From Chitinophaga pinensis (GTDB lineage: Bacteria; Bacteroidota; Bacteroidia; AKYH767-A; OLB10), in contig CALQOD010000006.1 in the NCBI GenBank assembly GCA_943332105.1, positions 1 to 56,128 on the forward strand: a stretch of 56,128 nt of DNA, read 5' to 3'. Under the pieces are notes generated by a model. It made no database searches, was not told the origin of the DNA, and saw only the letters and a list, made by a program, of their open reading frames with translations. Positions within the stretch are counted from its first letter, which is position 1, and each line of letters begins with the position of its first letter. Below, piece by piece: positions 4,395 through 33,323 of this stretch. The translations under genes were made by a program, and so were the position numbers.

Positions 4395-5450
4395 ATGCGA
4401 ATTTTATTGCTCCCTTTCTCATTTTTATATGGAATGGTTGTCCGTTTCAGAAATTTTCTATTTGATATTGGTGTTTTAAAACAGCATTCTTTTAAGTCGT
4501 TCGTCATTAATGTTGGCAATTTGTCAGCGGGAGGAACTGGTAAATCGCCTCATGTAATTTATTTAATTAATCAATTAAAATACAAATACCGATTGTCGGT
4601 TTTAAGTCGGGGCTATGGTCGTCTTACCACAGGGTTTAAGTGGGTTAAACAAGATAATAGTCCTCTGCATGTCGGTGATGAGCCACTGCAATATGCGAAT
4701 CTTTTTCCAGAATTGGATATCGCAGTTTGTGAGAGCAGGGTGATGGGTATTGAGCAAATTGAAAAAGAAAAAACAACTGAAATTATTTTGTTAGATGATG
4801 CTTTTCAGCACCGATATGTAAAACCCGATTTTAATATTCTAATCACAGAATATGCAGATTTGTTTTATAACGATCATTTGCTTCCTGTTGGTCGATTGCG
4901 AGAGCCTAAGGCTGGAGTAAAAAGAGCAGATGTAGTTATTGTGAGTAAGTCGCCCGAAAAAATTAATTTAAATGATATGCAGGAAATAAGTACTGCAATT
5001 AAAAAGTATGGAGTATCTAAAGTATTTTTTTCGTATATACGTTATAGTGAGTCGATGGAGTTTTTAACCGGAGAAAAAATGCCTTTAGCTTATTTAAGAA
5101 ATTGTAATGTTGTTTTGGTAGCTGGTATTGCTAATCCGAAACCATTTATAGAATTTGTAGCTTCAGTCTCTAAATCGGTGACGGAATTTATTTTTAAAGA
5201 CCATTATCAATTTTCATCTGGTGATATTATCAAAATCAAGAATGAATATAATCGTTTGGTTGGAATGAATTCGCCTGTTGTTATTATTACTACTCGCAAA
5301 GACTTTATGCGCTTTAATACTTCCGAGTTAAAGCACTTAATACAAAATTTACCTCTTGCTTTTATTGATATCGAGGTTTGTTTTAATGAAAATAATGAAA
5401 GTGACCTAATGGAATTACTCCAGAATGCAATTAATAAAAAGATTAAATGA
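4395..5450 (+). CDS. lpxK: Tetraacyldisaccharide 4'-kinase
   Basis: A 351-residue P-loop kinase that phosphorylates the 4' position of tetraacyl-disaccharide-1-phosphate to make lipid IVA, on the inner membrane. Seen here: a hydrophobic N-terminal membrane-association helix (1-25), Walker A GNLSAGGTGKS (41-51), LSRGYGR (about 70-76) and the Walker B-like/catalytic segment DDAFQHR (134-140). Length is normal for the family. The last four bases (ATGA) overlap the start of the next gene, so they are translationally coupled although functionally unrelated. Its presence indicates lipid A synthesis. Confidence 0.95.
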   Translation: MRILLLPFSFLYGMVVRFRNFLFDIGVLKQHSFKSFVINVGNLSAGGTGKSPHVIYLINQLKYKYRLSVLSRGYGRLTTGFKWVKQDNSPLHVGDEPLQYANLFPELDIAVCESRVMGIEQIEKEKTTEIILLDDAFQHRYVKPDFNILITEYADLFYNDHLLPVGRLREPKAGVKRADVVIVSKSPEKINLNDMQEISTAIKKYGVSKVFFSYIRYSESMEFLTGEKMPLAYLRNCNVVLVAGIANPKPFIEFVASVSKSVTEFIFKDHYQFSSGDIIKIKNEYNRLVGMNSPVVIITTRKDFMRFNTSELKHLIQNLPLAFIDIEVCFNENNESDLMELLQNAINKKIK

Positions 5451-8494: not shown

Positions 8495-9898
8495 TTAGTT
8501 GGTTTTTAATATTCGAGTTACATTTTTAAATGCACCCTGTTCAACAGTAATCATATATAAACCATTCATTAAGTTTTTACCAAATTGAATAGTGTTTTGA
8601 CTTCCATCAAAATTAAAAGTATCAATTGTTCTTCCGCTTAAATCAGTAATAGTAACTACAGCAGGTGCGTTTTCTAAATCACTGTTTAGTACTAGATTAA
8701 ACTCAGAACTTGATGGGTTAGGGAAAATTTGAGCATCAATTACAGTTCCATCAGCACGTTCAGCAAATGATAACGTTGTATGGTTCGGACGGAGTGTAGC
8801 AATTCCAATTTGGCATACACTGCCATAACAATATCCAACTCCATCTATATAAGGACGAACACGAACATTATAGAACTTAGTAGGTTGTAAAGCCGGTGTT
8901 ACGTCAGCAAAGCGACACCATTGAGTATTTGAAATGTATGTCCAAGTAATTCCTGGATGTGCTGTTTCTTCAAACTCAAATTCATATTGAGGTGTTGTTA
9001 AATAAGGTAAAACAACTGCACATTTAATACTATCAGTGCTATTAAAGTTAAATATTCCGCAATCCTGAGATCTTAATTCAACTTGGCGGATTGAACGAAT
9101 CACCGTTCCCGAAGATGAAAATTTACAAGTTCCATTTAATTGAACTGTTAAATAAACAGTTGAAGTATCTAAAACAGTTCCGCCAGCGCTACCGTCCATT
9201 AAAATTGAAACTGCCTGATTAGCAGAAGACCCTCCTGATGTTGTTCCATCAAACCAATGCCATTCATAACTTGAAAATCCTTGGTCTGCAACTAAATCAA
9301 CGAATCCAGGTTTGCAAACTGTTAATGATGATAATGCGTTTACTGCAGGCTGATAACCATTGTCGTAAACATTGATATCTACTGTTGTAGATGCAGAGTA
9401 ATTACATCCACCTGCATTAGTAGAAGTTGTCAAAGCATAAGTACCTGACTGGGAAGCATAAGTATATGGTAAGTTAGAGCCGTTACTCCAAGAATAAGAA
9501 TAATAAGGTCTTCTTCCCTTAGCAATAAGTTTTACTGAGTCTCCAGGACATAAATTCGTGTTTCCTTTTACAGCAATCTGTGGGGTTGGAGAAACAACAA
9601 CAGTGTAAGGAACTAATGCACTTGAAACAGTTCTAACTCCGTTGTATAAAGTTTGTCCTGTTACTCTTACTCGGTAAGATCCTGAATTATTCACAATAAT
9701 TGTTGGAGTAGTTTCTCCTGTTGACCATAAATAAATAAAGGGTCCATTCATACCCGTTGTATTGGCTGACAACGTAGTTCCATCACAAACAGTAGGGCCT
9801 GCAGGCGAAATTGAAACGCTTGCATTTTGGGCATTAACATTGGTTACAAAAAGTAAAAGCAATGTGATAATGCAATTAAAAGTAATTGATTTTTTCAT
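8495..9898 (-). CDS. Secreted Ig/PKD-like protein with T9SS type A sorting domain (paralogue 2)
   Basis: 467 residues from ATG 9898, where MKKSITFNCIITLLLLFVTN opens a signal peptide ending VNAQ|NASVS. The layout matches paralogue 1: NASVSISPAGP start, YLWSTGETTPTI, NLCPGDSVKL, YSWSNGS, SGTYALTTST, DNGYQPAVNAL, QNGTCKFSS-like cysteine segments, then the sorting domain (AQIFPNPSSSEFNLVL, NGLYMITVEQG). Identity to its neighbour is high everywhere, including the sorting domain, so divergence looks recent. The start is divergent from the sensor kinase gene, about 195 bases apart. Confidence 0.85.
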   Translation of the reverse strand: MKKSITFNCIITLLLLFVTNVNAQNASVSISPAGPTVCDGTTLSANTTGMNGPFIYLWSTGETTPTIIVNNSGSYRVRVTGQTLYNGVRTVSSALVPYTVVVSPTPQIAVKGNTNLCPGDSVKLIAKGRRPYYSYSWSNGSNLPYTYASQSGTYALTTSTNAGGCNYSASTTVDINVYDNGYQPAVNALSSLTVCKPGFVDLVADQGFSSYEWHWFDGTTSGGSSANQAVSILMDGSAGGTVLDTSTVYLTVQLNGTCKFSSSGTVIRSIRQVELRSQDCGIFNFNSTDSIKCAVVLPYLTTPQYEFEFEETAHPGITWTYISNTQWCRFADVTPALQPTKFYNVRVRPYIDGVGYCYGSVCQIGIATLRPNHTTLSFAERADGTVIDAQIFPNPSSSEFNLVLNSDLENAPAVVTITDLSGRTIDTFNFDGSQNTIQFGKNLMNGLYMITVEQGAFKNVTRILKTN

Positions 9899-9961
9899 CG
9901 AAGCAATTTTTAAAATAAGATTAATTTTAAGAAATATTTTGAAAAGCGAATTTAAGGAATC

Positions 9962-9969
9962 CAAAGTTA
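9962..9969 (-). promoter_or_regulatory. Candidate -7 box (TAACTTTG) of paralogue 2
   Basis: TAACTTTG on the minus strand is an exact TAnnTTTG match about 63 bases before ATG 9898, in the divergent intergenic region shared with the sensor kinase. Confidence 0.45.
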
Positions 9970-10093
9970 ATATGCAATTTAAAAATAATTTTTTGGCTTT
10001 TATACACATTTTAAGTGTTAATAAAGGATTCTTTTGGGTGAAAAAACACCATTATGGAATGATTTGAAACTATATTTTTATATTTCCGAACAA

Positions 10094-13000
10094 ATGCCCC
10101 TTATGTATAAATTTTATTGTCTCTTTTTTCTTTTATTTTTTTGCTATTCAGTACCCTATGCACAAAGGACTAGTTTGATAAATTATAGTCAAAGTAATGG
10201 GTTGCCAGGAAACCAAATTAATGATATTATTCAAGATCGCAATGGTTTAATTTGGATTGCAACTATGTCGGGTATTGTAACCTTTGATGGAAAATCATTT
10301 TCAACAATAAATAATTGGGAAGATATTGCCAATATTCCAATCAAATCAATTTATCAGGATAATAAAGGAAATTTATGGTTTGGGTCAATAAGAAAAGGAT
10401 TGTTTAAATTTTCTGGTACTAACCTATCCGTTTTTAATACTGATAATGGTTTGCCCAATAATATTATAAATGTAGTGAAGGGAGATGGGGACAATGGTAT
10501 TTGGATAGGTTCCAATGATGGTCTTTCGCATTTTGATGGTGAAAAATTCATTAATTACTCCGTAAAAAATGGATTGCCTAGCAATATCATTTTTGATGTG
10601 ATGAAAGACATGGAAGGCAAGGTATGGTTAGCTACTGCTAATGGGGTGTCAGTCTTTTTTAATGACAAGTTTATTAATTATTCGTCAGGGGTGGCAGGCT
10701 TTAAAAGTAATATTGTTTACTGCATAGCTCAATCAAACAATGGTGAGATTTGCTTTGGTACATATGATGGCTTGTCTGTTTTAAAAGACAACTATTTTAC
10801 TAATTATAATTCAACCAATGGCTTGCCTAGTGATAGGGTTGAATCTTTATTATTTGATAAAGATAATGTGCTATGGGTAGGTACTTACGGGGGAGGGTTA
10901 GTAAAAATGAATGGGGATTCATTCGAGACTGTTTCACTAGGAGCAGGGGTTAATAGTAAAATTATTACATCTGTTTTAAATGATAAAGAAGGTAACTTCT
11001 GGATTGGTACATGGTCTGGGGTTTTTAAATATGATAATAATCGGTTTTTAACTTATAATGTAGAGGATGGCTTGGGAGGCAATAACATATTATCTGTTTA
11101 TTTTGAAAAAAACACTAATCAGATTTTTTTAGGGACTCTTGCTGGTGGATTAAATATTTTAAAAGACAATAAAGTATTAGCTACTGTTTTAAGTGGTAAT
11201 AGTGTATGGTCAATAGAAAAAGAAAATGAAAATTCGGTTTGGTTAGGCACTACAAATGGTCCTGTTTTATATGATTTACACACAAATAAATTAACTTACC
11301 CTTTAAATCAGATTCAGAATAATATCATCTATGCAATTAAAAAGGCAAGTAACGGGATTCTGTATTTAGGAACTGATAAGGGATTGTATAAATATGCTGG
11401 TCGACAATTATCCTTGATTAATTCCCGAAATGGAATGGCCAATGAAAATGTAAGATCAATTTACGAAGATGAAAACCATGTAATATGGGTCGGCACAATG
11501 AAAGGTGCTTTTCAATTAAATAATGATCATGCAATTTCATTTAATGACCTTTTCGAACTAAAAAAAACACCCGTAACAACAATAACAAGTGATGGTAACG
11601 GTTCAATCATAATTGGAGGTTATGACTTAGGTATTGTGGTTTTTAATAATACTAAATCCGCTAAACTGAAAACAAATTTGATCAATTCAAATTCAGGCTT
11701 GTCAAGTGACAAGGTCCTCTTTACTTTGTTTGATAAAAAGAATTATTTATGGATTGGGACTACTTCGGGAATTGACCGACTTGACTGGAATTCTTACCTG
11801 AAAAACCATAAGATTTCACTTAATCATTTAAATAAAAGTAACGGTTATAATGGGGTTGAAACAAATGCAGCAGCACAAGATAATATTGGTAATTTATGGC
11901 TAGGATCAGTTAATGGTGCAATCAAATTTAATTCTTCAATTGGGTTTATTAAAACTTATTTACCATCTCTTTCCTTAACAAAAGTTCAGTTATTTTTTGA
12001 AGATGTTGATTGGTTGAAAAAGAATTTTAGTGTTAACTCGCATACAGGTTTGCCAATTGATTTGGTTTTAAACTTTAATGAAAACAATTTAAATTTTGTT
12101 TGTACTGGTGTGTTTTTAACTGCACCAGAAGAGTTGCGTTACAGGTATTTTCTTGATGGTTTTGATGATCATTGGTCGCCACTTACAAAGTCTAATTTTG
12201 CTAATTACTCAAACATTGCCCCTGGCAAATATATTTTTAAAGTGCAGGCCTCCGCAAACGGTTACGATTATACGATGCCATTAACTTTTGCTTTTGAAAT
12301 TAAAGCCCCTTACTATAAAACCATTTGGGCTTATATTTTTTATATTATTTCCTCAACAGCAATCATCGTTTTTAGTTATCGATATCGAACTCGCACACTG
12401 CGTATAGCCAAGGAAATTTTAGAAGACAAGGTAGAAGATCGTACTAAAGAGCTTCAAGTTAAAAACATTGAATTAGAGAAGTTATCGCTTGTAGCATCGG
12501 AAACGGATAATTCCATAATGATTTTTGATGCCAAACAACAATTAGAATGGGTCAACACTGGTTTTGTAAAGTTAACAGGGTATACACTTTTAGAATATCA
12601 GCAAATAAAAGGTAAAACGCTTACAAGTATGTCTTCTAATAAGGATGTACCGGTATTTATTAATGATATTATTAAAGAAAAAAAATCAATTGTATATGAA
12701 TCGGAAGTGTTTAGCAAATTAGATAAGCACTTATGGATGTCCTCAACGTTAACGCCTATTTTTGATGATCTAGGCGAGTTAAAGAATATTGTAATTATTG
12801 ATACAGATATTACTTTAAGGAAAAAAATGGAGGAGCAGATAAAATCTGCTTTAGAAGAGAAGGGGTTATTGCTACGGGAAATCCACCATCGGGTTAAAAA
12901 CAACTTGCAAATAATAATTAGCTTGTTCAATTTACAGACGAGTTATGTTGATGATGATAAAGCCTATCAGGCATTAAAAGAAGGACAGGATCGTATTAAA

Positions 13001-29055: not shown

Positions 29056-29631
29056 ATGTCTAGAATAGCCATCATCGATAATTACGATTCATTCACCTAT
29101 AATCTTGTTCATTATCTCGAAGAGATTACCAATGGCGAGGTATCGGTTTTTTTTAATGATCAAGTTACAATTGAGGAACTCGAAAAATTTGATGCACTGG
29201 TCATTTCTCCCGGACCAGGCATTCCTTCAGAGGCGGGAATTACCATTCAAATCATTCAGCATTTTGCAGGCAACAAACCAATACTAGGTATTTGTCTCGG
29301 ACATCAAGCAATAGCCGAAGCTTTTGGTGGCATGCTACGTCAATTAGATCAGGTGTTACATGGAGTTGTTCGTCTTTGCAAGGTTACAAATGCAGATTCG
29401 ATTTTTCAAAATATTACTTCAGACTTCGAAACAGGCCGTTATCACAGTTGGGTAGCTGATGAAAAATCATTTCCTGATTGCTTGGAAATTTTAGCAACGG
29501 ATGAAACGAATTGCATCATGGTGTTAAAGCACAAAGAGTATAACATGTACGGAATGCAATTTCATCCCGAATCAATAATGACACCTGAAGGTAAAATGAT
29601 GATGAGTAATTGGGTGGATTTGTTGGTGTAA
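29056..29631 (+). CDS. Anthranilate/aminodeoxychorismate synthase glutamine amidotransferase subunit
   Basis: 191 residues, class I glutamine amidotransferase. Start IAIIDNYDSFTYNLVHYLEE is the TrpG/PabA signature; oxyanion/nucleophile GICLGHQAIAEAFGG (Cys) and the His/Glu pair in MQFHPESIMTPEG complete the triad. It supplies ammonia to TrpE (tryptophan) or PabB (folate). No trpE, pabB or other trp gene is in the window, so TrpG and PabA cannot be told apart here; the isolated position leans slightly to PabA or a dual-use subunit. Confidence 0.9.
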   Translation: MSRIAIIDNYDSFTYNLVHYLEEITNGEVSVFFNDQVTIEELEKFDALVISPGPGIPSEAGITIQIIQHFAGNKPILGICLGHQAIAEAFGGMLRQLDQVLHGVVRLCKVTNADSIFQNITSDFETGRYHSWVADEKSFPDCLEILATDETNCIMVLKHKEYNMYGMQFHPESIMTPEGKMMMSNWVDLLV

Positions 29632-29646
29632 TCAAATTTTATATTT

Positions 29647-29678
29647 AACCAGGGTGGGGTTTAAACCCCACCCTGGTT
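29647..29678. repeat. Perfect 32-bp palindrome centred on GTTTAAAC
   Basis: Two exact 16-base arms (AACCAGGGTGGGGTTT and its complement) meet with no spacer. It lies 15 bases after trpG/pabA and could also end its transcript as a stem-loop, although no T-run follows. The sequence family recurs at 29724 and, as a half, at 29900. Confidence 0.85.
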
Positions 29679-29723
29679 GGTTGATTTAAATTTTCATATC
29701 GTTCATCAAATAGAATTATTTTT

Positions 29724-29916: not shown

Positions 29917-29948
29917 TTAATCTGAATGTATAAAATCAAATATTAAAA

Positions 29949-30011
29949 CAGGTGCGGGTTTGCCTGTAGTGAGTAGCGAGGTTTCGCTATACTACTACAG
30001 GCCCGCACCTG
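29949..30011 (+). repeat. 63-nt hairpin repeat, copy A
   Basis: Outer arms CAGGTGCGGG / CCCGCACCTG, middle arms CCTGTAGT / ACTACAGG, inner arms TAGCGA / TCGCTA around GGTT. This is a near-continuous hairpin with a TTTG bulge. The same element occurs at 32736-32798 with one base change and in the same orientation. Confidence 0.9.
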
Positions 30012-30118
30012 CTTAGTTTATACCTCTTGCTCCATTTCTGTCTTAAATCGCAAGAATTCGTGATTTTCGGCCGGGCTTCAGCAAACCATATCTTGTTGTT
30101 ACTTGCCACAATTAATCC

Positions 30119-30149
30119 TTGTGATAAATAAATCATTGTTGTACTTTTG
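30119..30149 (+). promoter_or_regulatory. Promoter of the LamG leader (TTG-N20-TACTTTTG)
   Basis: -33 TTG at 30119-30121 and -7 TACTTTTG at 30142-30149, 20 bases apart, matching the Bacteroidota spacing. Initiation near 30154-30156 would give a ~245-nt 5' leader containing the whole structured element. Confidence 0.65.
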
Positions 30150-30197
30150 AAAATCAAATTCGAAAACTATCGATTAGAAAAAAATAATTGAAAATAA

Positions 30198-30370
30198 TTA
30201 GCGTTTGCTAACTGCCTGTATCTGAAAAGTCGAAAATTCAATTGCAACGGGAAAGTTTAGTAAGTGCTCACGTAAAGCGTGGGTGTTACTTTACTTCGTT
30301 GCTAGGGCTTCGACTCCCTCAGATACAAGTTGGTGATTGTCCCACGCTGATTTTTTATACCAAACGCTGA
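30198..30370 (+). ncRNA. Structured, pseudoknotted 5' leader RNA (unassigned family)
   Basis: Complementary segments nest exactly. P1: 30198-30207 with 30361-30370 (AGCGTTTG/CAAACGCT plus two more pairs, one G-U). P2: TGTATCTGA 30217-30225 with TCAGATACA 30319-30327. P3: AGTCGAA 30228-30234 with TTCGACT 30309-30315. P4: GCAACG 30244-30249 with CGTTGC 30297-30302. P5: AAAGT 30252-30256 with ACTTT 30288-30292. A pseudoknot pairs AGCGTGGG (30276-30283, in the terminal loop) with CCCACGCT (30341-30348, between P2 and P1). A competing local hairpin TTAGC/GCTAA (30198-30211) would break P1, as in a switch. It lies between a promoter and ATG 30402. A cis-regulatory leader is the simplest reading; an independent small RNA is possible. 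No known riboswitch, tmRNA or ribozyme core was recognised. Confidence 0.72.
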
Positions 30371-30401
30371 GCGGGGTGAAACAGCAATAAAAAAACAAAT
30401 T

Positions 30402-32018
30402 ATGAATTACAAAAAATTCTTGGCAACATTTAAAAAAGCAAGTGTTAGCCGCAAAAAATTAAATTTAATTGCAGTGCTATTACTAGCTGCAAGCATCGCA
30501 TTCGCGCAAGTACCTTCGTATGTACCAACTAACGGACTCGTAGGCTGGTGGCCGTTTAATGGAAATGCGAATGATGAAAGTGGAAATGGTAATAATGGGA
30601 TGGTGAATGGAGCGACGTTGACGAGTGATAGGATTGGCAGTCCTAATATGGCATATCTTTTTAATGGAACAACAAATTATATTTCATTAAGTAATAGTTT
30701 TTTTAATGGTAGCAATAGCGTACCACAATTAACCTATTCTGTATGGATCAAATGTCACCAATTACCAATTAATTCTTCTGCATTTATTTCAGGCAAGGAA
30801 GGATATTGGAGATCAAAATACCTGTTCCTTGAGCCAGACGGTTCAATTCATTTTGGAAGAACACAGCCTAGTCCTCAAAATTATATTGACGTAAACTCCG
30901 GGGCCAATGCGATTCAGCTTAACAATTGGCAAAATATCATCATAACATTCTTATCTGGTGACTTAAAGATGTATATAAATGGCAATTTAGTTGGAAGTTC
31001 AACCATTCCATATTTAAATTTAGACTATTCTTATTTGTTGCAAGGAAATGCAACAAACACTAATTTTATCGGAGCGGTTAATCCAGCTTCAGGAATATCG
31101 GATTATTTCAACGGCTGCATAGACGATTTTGGTATTTGGAACCGAGCATTAACTCAACAAGAAATCACAGCACTTTACAATTCACAATCATGCAATAGTT
31201 CTTCAAATACCATCACTGCTGACGGTCCTACTACTTTTTGTGCAGGTAACTATGTTAACTTAACAAGTGATGTGTTGGGTGGTACTTACCAATGGAAGAA
31301 GAACGGAGTAAACATTACTACGAACGCAACTACTAAAACGTATAAAGCAACAGCAACAGGTTCTTATACCTGCGTAGCTAATTGTAACGGTACTGTCTTA
31401 ACGAGTAATGCCATTGCTGTAACGTCTAAAACAAATGCTTCTGCTTCGGTATCGGCAAGTGGAGCAACATCGTTCTGCGCTGGTGATAGCGTAACACTTA
31501 ATGCAACTAACCTCGGTAGCAATTACAGCGTGCAATGGTATCGTACGAATATCTCTATGGAGAATGCAACGGCTTACTCTCAAGTTGTAAAACAACCTGG
31601 CACTTATAAAGTGGTAACTAAAAATTTAACTACAGGTTGCTCTCGCATTAGCGGTAGCGCAATAACTACTTCAGTAAATTGTCGTATTGCAGGAGATGTC
31701 ACTTCCGGTTCTATCATCCAAGAAAATACCAACGTTGATAGTCGCTTTATAGATAACGAACTTTCACAAGGCGTGCATATTTTTCCAAATCCAAACAGTG
31801 GTGTATTTAGTTTCAACTACGATGGAGAAGAAACAGGTGATGCTGTATTGCAAATCATCAACAACATGGGACAATCCATTTATGAATCTCGATTATCTGT
31901 CCCAGAAGGTGGCTTCACACAAGATCTTCAATTAGGCGATAACATCACCAAAGGAATTTATATCGTGCGTCTATTAATCAACAATAGCTACCATGATAGC
32001 AAGGTGATTGTGAAATAG
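30402..32018 (+). CDS. LamG/concanavalin-like and Ig-like T9SS surface protein
   Basis: 538 residues. The N-terminus has an unusually long basic n-region (MNYKKFLATFKKASVSRKK) before the signal-peptide core (LIAVLLLAASIAFAQ). Residues ~45-265 form a LamG/concanavalin-A-like jellyroll (GLVGWWPFNGNANDESGNGN, CIDDFGIWNRALTQQEITAL). Two Ig-like repeats follow (ADGPTTFCAGNYVNLTS; ASGATSFCAGDSVTLNA). The end is a T9SS type A sorting domain (VHIFPNPNSGVFSFNY ... GIYIVRLLINN). Likely a surface-exposed carbohydrate- or matrix-binding protein. It is the only gene between the two 63-nt hairpin repeats and is preceded by the structured leader. A strong terminator follows. Confidence 0.88.
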   Translation: MNYKKFLATFKKASVSRKKLNLIAVLLLAASIAFAQVPSYVPTNGLVGWWPFNGNANDESGNGNNGMVNGATLTSDRIGSPNMAYLFNGTTNYISLSNSFFNGSNSVPQLTYSVWIKCHQLPINSSAFISGKEGYWRSKYLFLEPDGSIHFGRTQPSPQNYIDVNSGANAIQLNNWQNIIITFLSGDLKMYINGNLVGSSTIPYLNLDYSYLLQGNATNTNFIGAVNPASGISDYFNGCIDDFGIWNRALTQQEITALYNSQSCNSSSNTITADGPTTFCAGNYVNLTSDVLGGTYQWKKNGVNITTNATTKTYKATATGSYTCVANCNGTVLTSNAIAVTSKTNASASVSASGATSFCAGDSVTLNATNLGSNYSVQWYRTNISMENATAYSQVVKQPGTYKVVTKNLTTGCSRISGSAITTSVNCRIAGDVTSGSIIQENTNVDSRFIDNELSQGVHIFPNPNSGVFSFNYDGEETGDAVLQIINNMGQSIYESRLSVPEGGFTQDLQLGDNITKGIYIVRLLINNSYHDSKVIVK

Positions 32019-32925: not shown

Positions 32926-33305
32926 AGAAAGCAAACCGCCTTGTCGCCCTTCGGGGAGGAAAGTCCGGGCAACAAAGAGTACCACACTTCCTAACGGGAA
33001 GGCAGTAGCGAAGAAATTTACTACCGACAGACAGTGCCGCAGAAAACTATACCACCTGGAGGTAAACTCTGGGTAAGGGTGAAAATGTGAGGTAAGAGCT
33101 CACAGGTTGTGATGGCGACATCCAACTGGGTAAACCTTGTGGGTTGAAAAACCAAATAGGTTGGGGATGAGAGCTGCTCGTTCGATTGAACCTTCGGGTT
33201 CTGCCCCAATGGGTAGGTTGAATCAGGTGTTACGCGAGTAACATCGCAGATAAATGACAGGGGCCCGCTTGCGGGGACAGAATCCGGCTTATAGGTTTGC
33301 TTTCT
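32926..33305 (+). ncRNA. rnpB: RNase P RNA (bacterial type A-like)
   Basis: About 380 nt. Ends defined by P1: AGAAAGCAAACC (32926-32937) pairs exactly with GGTTTGCTTTCT (33294-33305). Conserved core regions present in order: GAGGAAAGTCCGGGC near the 5' end (P4 left strand/CR I), GGTAAGAGCTCACAG mid-molecule, a GATGAGAGCTGCTCG stretch and ACAGAATCCGGCTTATAGG (CR V/P4 right strand) near the 3' end. It is the catalytic RNA of the tRNA 5'-maturation ribozyme. The protein subunit gene rnpA is not in the window. The 3' end lies 18 bases before the next start codon. Confidence 0.96.
33269..33299 (+). promoter_or_regulatory. Candidate promoter inside the 3' end of rnpB for the HD gene
   Basis: TTG at 33269-33271, 20 bases, then TAGGTTTG at 33292-33299 (exact TAnnTTTG). 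The -7 box overlaps the P1/CR V end of RNase P RNA, and ATG 33324 follows after 24 bases. Confidence 0.4.
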
Positions 33306-33323
33306 TTTATTACTTTTATCCCA

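Follow-up and report, generated by a model that had tools for sequence, protein, structure and literature searches.

The region upstream of an exported-protein gene in Chitinophaga pinensis contains a structured leader RNA that represents a real, widespread family, so far found only in Bacteroidota. The element was located in a 56,128-nt stretch of contig CALQOD010000006.1 (hereafter the window). The family is new to Rfam and to the literature that we searched, with the reservation that two published sets of candidates, the GUCCY-hairpin and 64 flavobacterial 5' regions, were not compared with it. It retains two alternative sets of pairings among four strands, and we consider it likely to be a terminator/antiterminator leader, in which premature transcription termination is controlled by partner exchange among these strands. 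Termination, regulation and sensing are inferred here, as no transcript, termination or ligand data are available. The original prediction, made from sequence alone, was of an undescribed structured leader with a long-range pairing, possibly with two states. This headline held, given the absence of an Rfam match, the compensatory changes in homologues and the position as a 5' leader of a co-oriented gene.

The element, of roughly 160 nt, spans positions 30195–30360 of the forward strand, as matched by two covariance models searched against the whole genome of origin (R1, E = 1.1e-35; R2, E = 6.7e-23). Its effective 3' end is the run of six T at 30351–30356, a terminator-like feature directly 3' of the last of the four strands, and at least five T in six were present at this place in 93 of 100 aligned homologues. 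The region between the predicted transcript start and the end of the T run (30156–30356) was more stable than expected from its composition (z = −6.4), as was 30198–30401 (z = −4.5); none of 200 shuffled sequences was equally stable in either case.

R1, built from nine homologues, found the element in 18 of 42 genomes of the order. In the class sample it did so in 80 of 395 genomes, representing 50 of 197 genera; the best E-values were ~1e-39, and single genomes held as many as seven copies. R2 was rebuilt from 100 sequences with P2, P4, P5 and P6 as its pairs. In a sample of 395 genomes of the phylum it matched 61, including 16 that lie outside the class; the weakest of these phylum matches reached only ~1e-5 and may include errors. 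E-values of both models are rough due to a short calibration, and weak matches on the strand opposite to true members (E ~1e-3 to 1e-5) were discarded as reverse-complement shadows. An exact-pattern scan covering 84,980 species of bacteria and archaea gave 42 matching stretches, every one in a record named as Bacteroidota; the cultured Flavobacterium aciduliphilum and Chitinophaga silvatica were among them. A nucleotide-level search of plasmids gave no match to the leader. In total, 206 distinct copies were collected.

Several copies had noteworthy arrangements. A nucleotide search of the genome of origin revealed a second copy, 81% identical (C110:5013–5274). Window positions 30326–30386 and 5190–5260 of locus L009, the 3' part of the leader, are identical over ~60 nt, while the 5' part is ~75–80% identical; an identical 3' part in two copies of the same genome suggests recent gene conversion. 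A third copy in this genome (G000:C51:15469–15605, L189) is seemingly broken, as the leader sequence stops past hairpin P5 and other sequence follows. Elsewhere, two complete copies lie in tandem on the reverse strand, 120 nt apart and each with a T run (L164, 3001–3164 and 3285–3451). A 62-kb viral contig from IMG/VR (L261) carries a leader with its own promoter region (10267–10444; gene at 9745–10227), and this copy leads a small membrane-protein gene.

Three lines of positional evidence place the element as a cis-acting leader. First, the window contains a −7 box, TACTTTTG, at 30142–30149 (forward strand), in agreement with the Bacteroidota consensus TAnnTTTG, which has been mapped as the −7 box in Flavobacterium (PMC9723704). 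This motif occurred within 110 nt upstream of 143 of 204 homologues, compared to 6.8% of random windows. Second, the next downstream gene was co-oriented in 140 of 155 copies (p = 1e-26), whereas the orientation of the upstream neighbour was random (79/77). Third, the distance from the RNA end to the ATG peaked at 40–49 nt, so that the start codon usually lies ~40 nt past the conserved T run; the ATG in the window, 42 nt past the RNA match, falls within this peak. Because the element has its own promoter, a mostly co-oriented next gene and an ATG at a typical distance, we read it as a cis-acting 5' leader. This is shown as a position, without transcript data.

The presumed target in the window is the gene of a 538-aa exported LamG protein at 30402–32018 on the forward strand (Laminin_G_3, Pfam PF13385, E = 2.3e-24). 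The C110 copy, too, lies ahead of an exported-protein gene; the start of the product is LamG-like and its C-terminal domains are shared. Based on a simple heuristic, 86 of 133 downstream proteins looked exported, compared to 25 of 92 upstream proteins (p = 4e-8). Among the 147 downstream proteins analysed, 15 contained Laminin_G_3 and 8–9 were type III methyltransferases, and other families were response regulators, PKD proteins and restriction subunits. The target genes are accessory and encode exported proteins (LamG proteins among them), lipoproteins, type III methyltransferases and response regulators; they are diverse and have no metabolic pathway in common. In the upstream controls (n = 86, mostly housekeeping), Laminin_G_3 and the PF01555 DNA methylase were absent from the families with more than one matching member. 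Upstream of the leader in three close homologues (L022, 370–675; L012, 262–567; L023, 1054–1365) we observed helix-turn-helix genes that, named by eye, resemble HigA-type antitoxins.

A rival explanation is that the element is a free-standing, trans-acting sRNA that ends at its own terminator, with the neighbouring gene transcribed from a separate downstream promoter. The element's own promoter and terminator-like 3' end would fit such an sRNA, as would the few copies without a close co-oriented gene (ATG at a distance above 130 nt, or a neighbour on the opposite strand). Against it stand the co-orientation of the next gene and the clustering of ATGs past the U run described above, as well as the likeness of the downstream genes to each other, which are exported and accessory while the upstream control genes are not. 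Moreover, up to seven divergent copies per genome suit leaders better than a single sRNA. We therefore consider the sRNA unlikely.

The secondary structure was examined in 100 sequences aligned to R2 (alignment A7), in which the pairs of P2, P3, P4, P6 and the long-range helix PK_B were counted. Of all cells in this alignment, 93.9% were paired, compared to 67.0% in shuffles and 37–42% in slid controls, and two-sided (compensatory) changes were present in 34 of 37 pairs, the long-range pairing included. A7 was fitted to P2, P4, P5 and P6, and P3 was a pair in R1, which was used in the alignment that seeded R2; the counts for P2–P6 consequently lean towards the structure. In contrast, the helices PK_A, PK_B and P1' were never among the pairs used in building R1 or R2. 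A mutual-information scan without any given structure ranked P2–P6 and PK_B at the top. It also revealed pairs that had not previously been drawn, namely a seventh one in P3, another in PK_B and an extension of PK_B.

The core of the RNA consists of four helices. P2 is formed by 30217–30225 with 30319–30327 (9 bp), and all nine pairs covaried (94.8% paired in the 100 sequences). P3, at 30228–30234 with 30309–30315 (7 bp), was 93.3% paired with covariation in all six counted pairs, the seventh being the one from mutual information. P4, at 30244–30251 with 30295–30302, was 94.1% paired, and nine of ten pairs covaried. The short helix P6 pairs AGGG (30304–30307) with CCCU (30316–30319), and reads GGG/CCC in the window and GGU/ACC in most homologues. 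It was 88% paired, with three of four counted pairs covarying and one invariant; its A-U pair 30304/30319, a competitor of P2, was left out of the counts. The loop of P6 is the 3' strand of P3, so P6 crosses P3 and the core contains an H-type pseudoknot. Two unpaired core positions, A39 and A40 of the alignment, were invariant in all 100 sequences.

Conservation in the leader follows base pairs, not codons. On the forward strand of A7, G-U pairs outnumbered A-C by 521 to 73, indicating that the element acts as RNA and on that strand. This result, along with the retained promoter and co-orientation, all but excludes a DNA-level element such as a recombination site or repeat, an explanation which could otherwise be supported by the association of the element with accessory genes and its presence on one viral contig.

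Around the core lie four strands, termed a, b, c and d, each with two partners. Strand a, GCGUU, is located at 30201–30205, and with its 5' flank reads UUAGCGU (30198–30204). Strand b, AGUGCUCACG, lies at 30263–30272, strand c, AGCGUGGGU, at 30276–30284, and strand d, GUCCCACGCUGA, at 30339–30350, all on the forward strand. In the nested conformer, b and c form the hairpin P5 (30266–30272/30278–30284), whose upper helix was 98.4% paired, while a with its flank and d form the closing helix P1' (30198–30204/30344–30350). P1' was 79.9% paired with a score of 0.282 versus 0.162 for shuffled sequences, and its flanking pairs covaried. In the alternative conformer, c and d instead form PK_B, a terminator-like stem at 30276–30283/30341–30348 that was 95.1% paired over nine pairs, eight of them covarying, and a pairs with the 5' part of b (30263–30267) in PK_A, which was 94.6% paired. 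The extension of PK_B, 30286–30289 with 30332–30336, was 72.4% paired and covaried at 143–210 and 144–209. The region of strand a also forms a local hairpin, UUAGC-GUUU-GCUAA, which in 61 of 100 sequences was more stable than 90% of shuffles.

Strand c can thus pair with b or with d, and both options have been retained. At the core shared columns 130–136 of A7, both P5 and PK_B could be formed in 93–99% of sequences. Where a shared base had changed, both partners followed, giving triple changes (C-G-C to U-A-U, for example); U-A-U was found in eight sequences at column 135 and G-C-G in five at column 132. At the flanking shared columns 128, 138 and 142–146, pairing in P5 or PK_B was often absent. 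Nearest-neighbour energies, with loop costs ignored, favoured PK_B over P5 in 96 of 100 sequences. The helices PK_A and P1', which also covary, swap in step with PK_B and P5, so that the nested set b:c and a:d exchanges for c:d and a:b. The two sets are shown as pairings, and the switching between them is inferred.

Each pairing listed in the original prediction was present in the window, namely P1 (30198–30207/30362–30371), P2, P3, P4 (given there as 6 bp, 30244–30249/30297–30302) and an 8-bp long-range pairing. It had also named a lack of compensatory changes in homologues as grounds for refutation. P2, P3, P4 and the long-range pairing survived this test, and P1 as drawn failed: across 204 homologues the mean best duplex for P1 was −5.42 kcal/mol, compared to −5.45 kcal/mol for shuffles. 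This P1 uses a second ACGCTGA at 30365–30371 that homologues do not keep, and the conserved closing helix is instead P1', with a 3' strand 20 nt upstream of that of P1. The proposed switch between a local hairpin and P1 likewise failed as a conserved exchange; what is conserved is P5 plus the closing helix versus the two long-range helices. The label of apical loop for the segment that takes part in the long-range pairing also failed. This segment is mostly the 3' strand of P5, and the long-range pairing, there called a pseudoknot, hence competes with P5. P6 was absent from the original list and was found in addition.

Two criteria for a terminating riboswitch were met, a conserved structured 5' leader ahead of a co-oriented gene, and mutually exclusive helices that include a terminator-type stem with a U run. 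The latter was met as pairing only, since termination was not shown. In the mechanism that we propose, the core of P2, P3 and P4 with the crossing P6 would hold the four strands: a (5' GCGUU), b (AACGC/AGUGC-UCACG), c (GCGUGGGC) and d (CCCACGC, followed by U6). In the pass conformer, c would pair with b in hairpin P5 and a with d in the closing helix, which would block d from joining a GC-rich stem before the U run, so that transcription continues. In the stop conformer, c would reach across the core to d and form 9–13 bp directly before U6, resembling an intrinsic terminator, with a paired to b, and transcription would end ahead of the gene. A cellular signal would presumably bias the choice by binding the conserved core. 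The data show the family, both pairing sets, the position as a leader and the U run; termination by c:d, a regulated choice and the sensing of a ligand or protein are inferred.

Two features of this model call for caution. The assignment of ON and OFF could be reversed, since the signal for P1' is weaker and P1' also abuts the U run. In addition, strands c and d of the putative terminator stem lie ~55 nt apart. Such a long-range stem differs from a normal intrinsic terminator and might form too slowly to halt the polymerase.

Alternatively, the leader could be constitutive, serving to protect the mRNA 5' end or to set a fixed low read-through without any signal, with the alternative pairings as mere folding intermediates. 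The diverse accessory targets without a common pathway would agree with this, as would the greater stability of the terminator-like conformer in nearly all copies. However, two complete and exclusive pairing sets are selectively kept, the shared strand changes together with both partners, and unpaired core positions are invariant, none of which fixed attenuation would need. A constitutive leader is thus improbable in our view.

If the choice between conformers is regulated, as the terminator/antiterminator reading holds, the signal could be a protein instead of a small molecule. The lack of a common metabolic pathway among the targets would be unusual for a metabolite riboswitch. A protein-responsive attenuator, in which an RNA-binding protein or antitermination factor binds the core, is possible, and diverse targets are typical of global regulators and not of one metabolite. 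Against it, no candidate protein was found. NusG matches numbered one in 36 genomes of the order and none in 6, and no specialised second NusG of the LoaP/UpxY type was evident among these 42 genomes; a NusG paralogue is an unlikely signal, and other proteins are not excluded. Cyclic di-GMP is also unlikely, because GGDEF occurred in only one of 42 genomes of the order (G003) and that genome had no match to the leader; no c-di-GMP riboswitch was matched in Rfam either. The c-di-AMP cyclase domain was near-universal (38 of 42 genomes), and is therefore uninformative on c-di-AMP.

As the original prediction had proposed, the RNA was compared with Rfam, and no known class was matched: with Rfam 15 at the curated threshold, no family covered the RNA, either in the window or at 40 homologous loci. 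A search of the literature for the motif, which did not extend to supplementary files, found nothing relevant. The leader resembles transcription-terminating riboswitches and attenuators in its position as a 5' leader with its own promoter, a folded core and mutually exclusive helices, and also in the GC-rich stem with U run, the proximity to the start codon and the several copies per genome. It differs from them in its terminator-like stem, a pseudoknotted long-range helix that spans the core and is coupled to a second long-range helix, and in that neither a ligand nor a common target pathway is apparent.

Several described motifs of Bacteroidota invite comparison. DUF805 and DUF805b RNAs (RF03081 and RF02914; Rfam type Cis-reg) are likewise cis-regulatory leaders, but they are motifs of 35–68 nt located past the U run and constitute a separate element without overlap. 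We observed such motifs 3' of the leader at three loci (L066, 1707–1773; L041, 1691–1726, just under the gathering score; L050, 1690–1725), 24–36 nt past the leader end and between the T run and the ATG, making a tandem of two leader elements. Flavo-1 (RF01705), like the present family a Bacteroidetes motif from comparative genomics, was matched only elsewhere in one locus (L078, 1051–1126). The GUCCY-hairpin is a further Bacteroidetes motif from comparative genomics, listed without an Rfam entry in Table 1 of Weinberg et al. 2010 (PMC2864571), and the possibility remains that it represents a fragment of the present leader. In Flavobacterium psychrophilum, 64 structured 5' regions without a known family have been reported, along with the same −7 box (PMC9723704), and these could include members of the family.

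About a fifth of the Bacteroidia genomes sampled carry the leader, some with as many as seven copies, in a phylum with few understood leader RNAs. It would provide a common means of regulating accessory genes, including those for surface LamG and PKD proteins, lipoproteins, type III DNA methyltransferases, response regulators and at least one viral gene. The four-strand exchange is a way of constructing a terminator switch that lends itself to testing, and a search for ligands could be directed at the conserved core, which is well defined. In a bolder reading, which we hold to be as plausible as not, the family is a new and widespread riboswitch-like class in which the terminator stem is itself a pseudoknot and two long-range helices swap in step with two nested ones. 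If true, one signal would act on exported proteins, DNA-modification systems and response regulators gained by horizontal transfer.

Two further features of the window were recorded near the leader. Upstream of the leader, past the end of a gene at 29631, are two long near-perfect palindromes, at 29638–29690 and 29946–30014, the second of ~65 nt, both of which remain unexplained. Downstream of the LamG gene, positions 32928–33307 contain the gene for a class A RNase P RNA (Rfam E = 9.7e-74).
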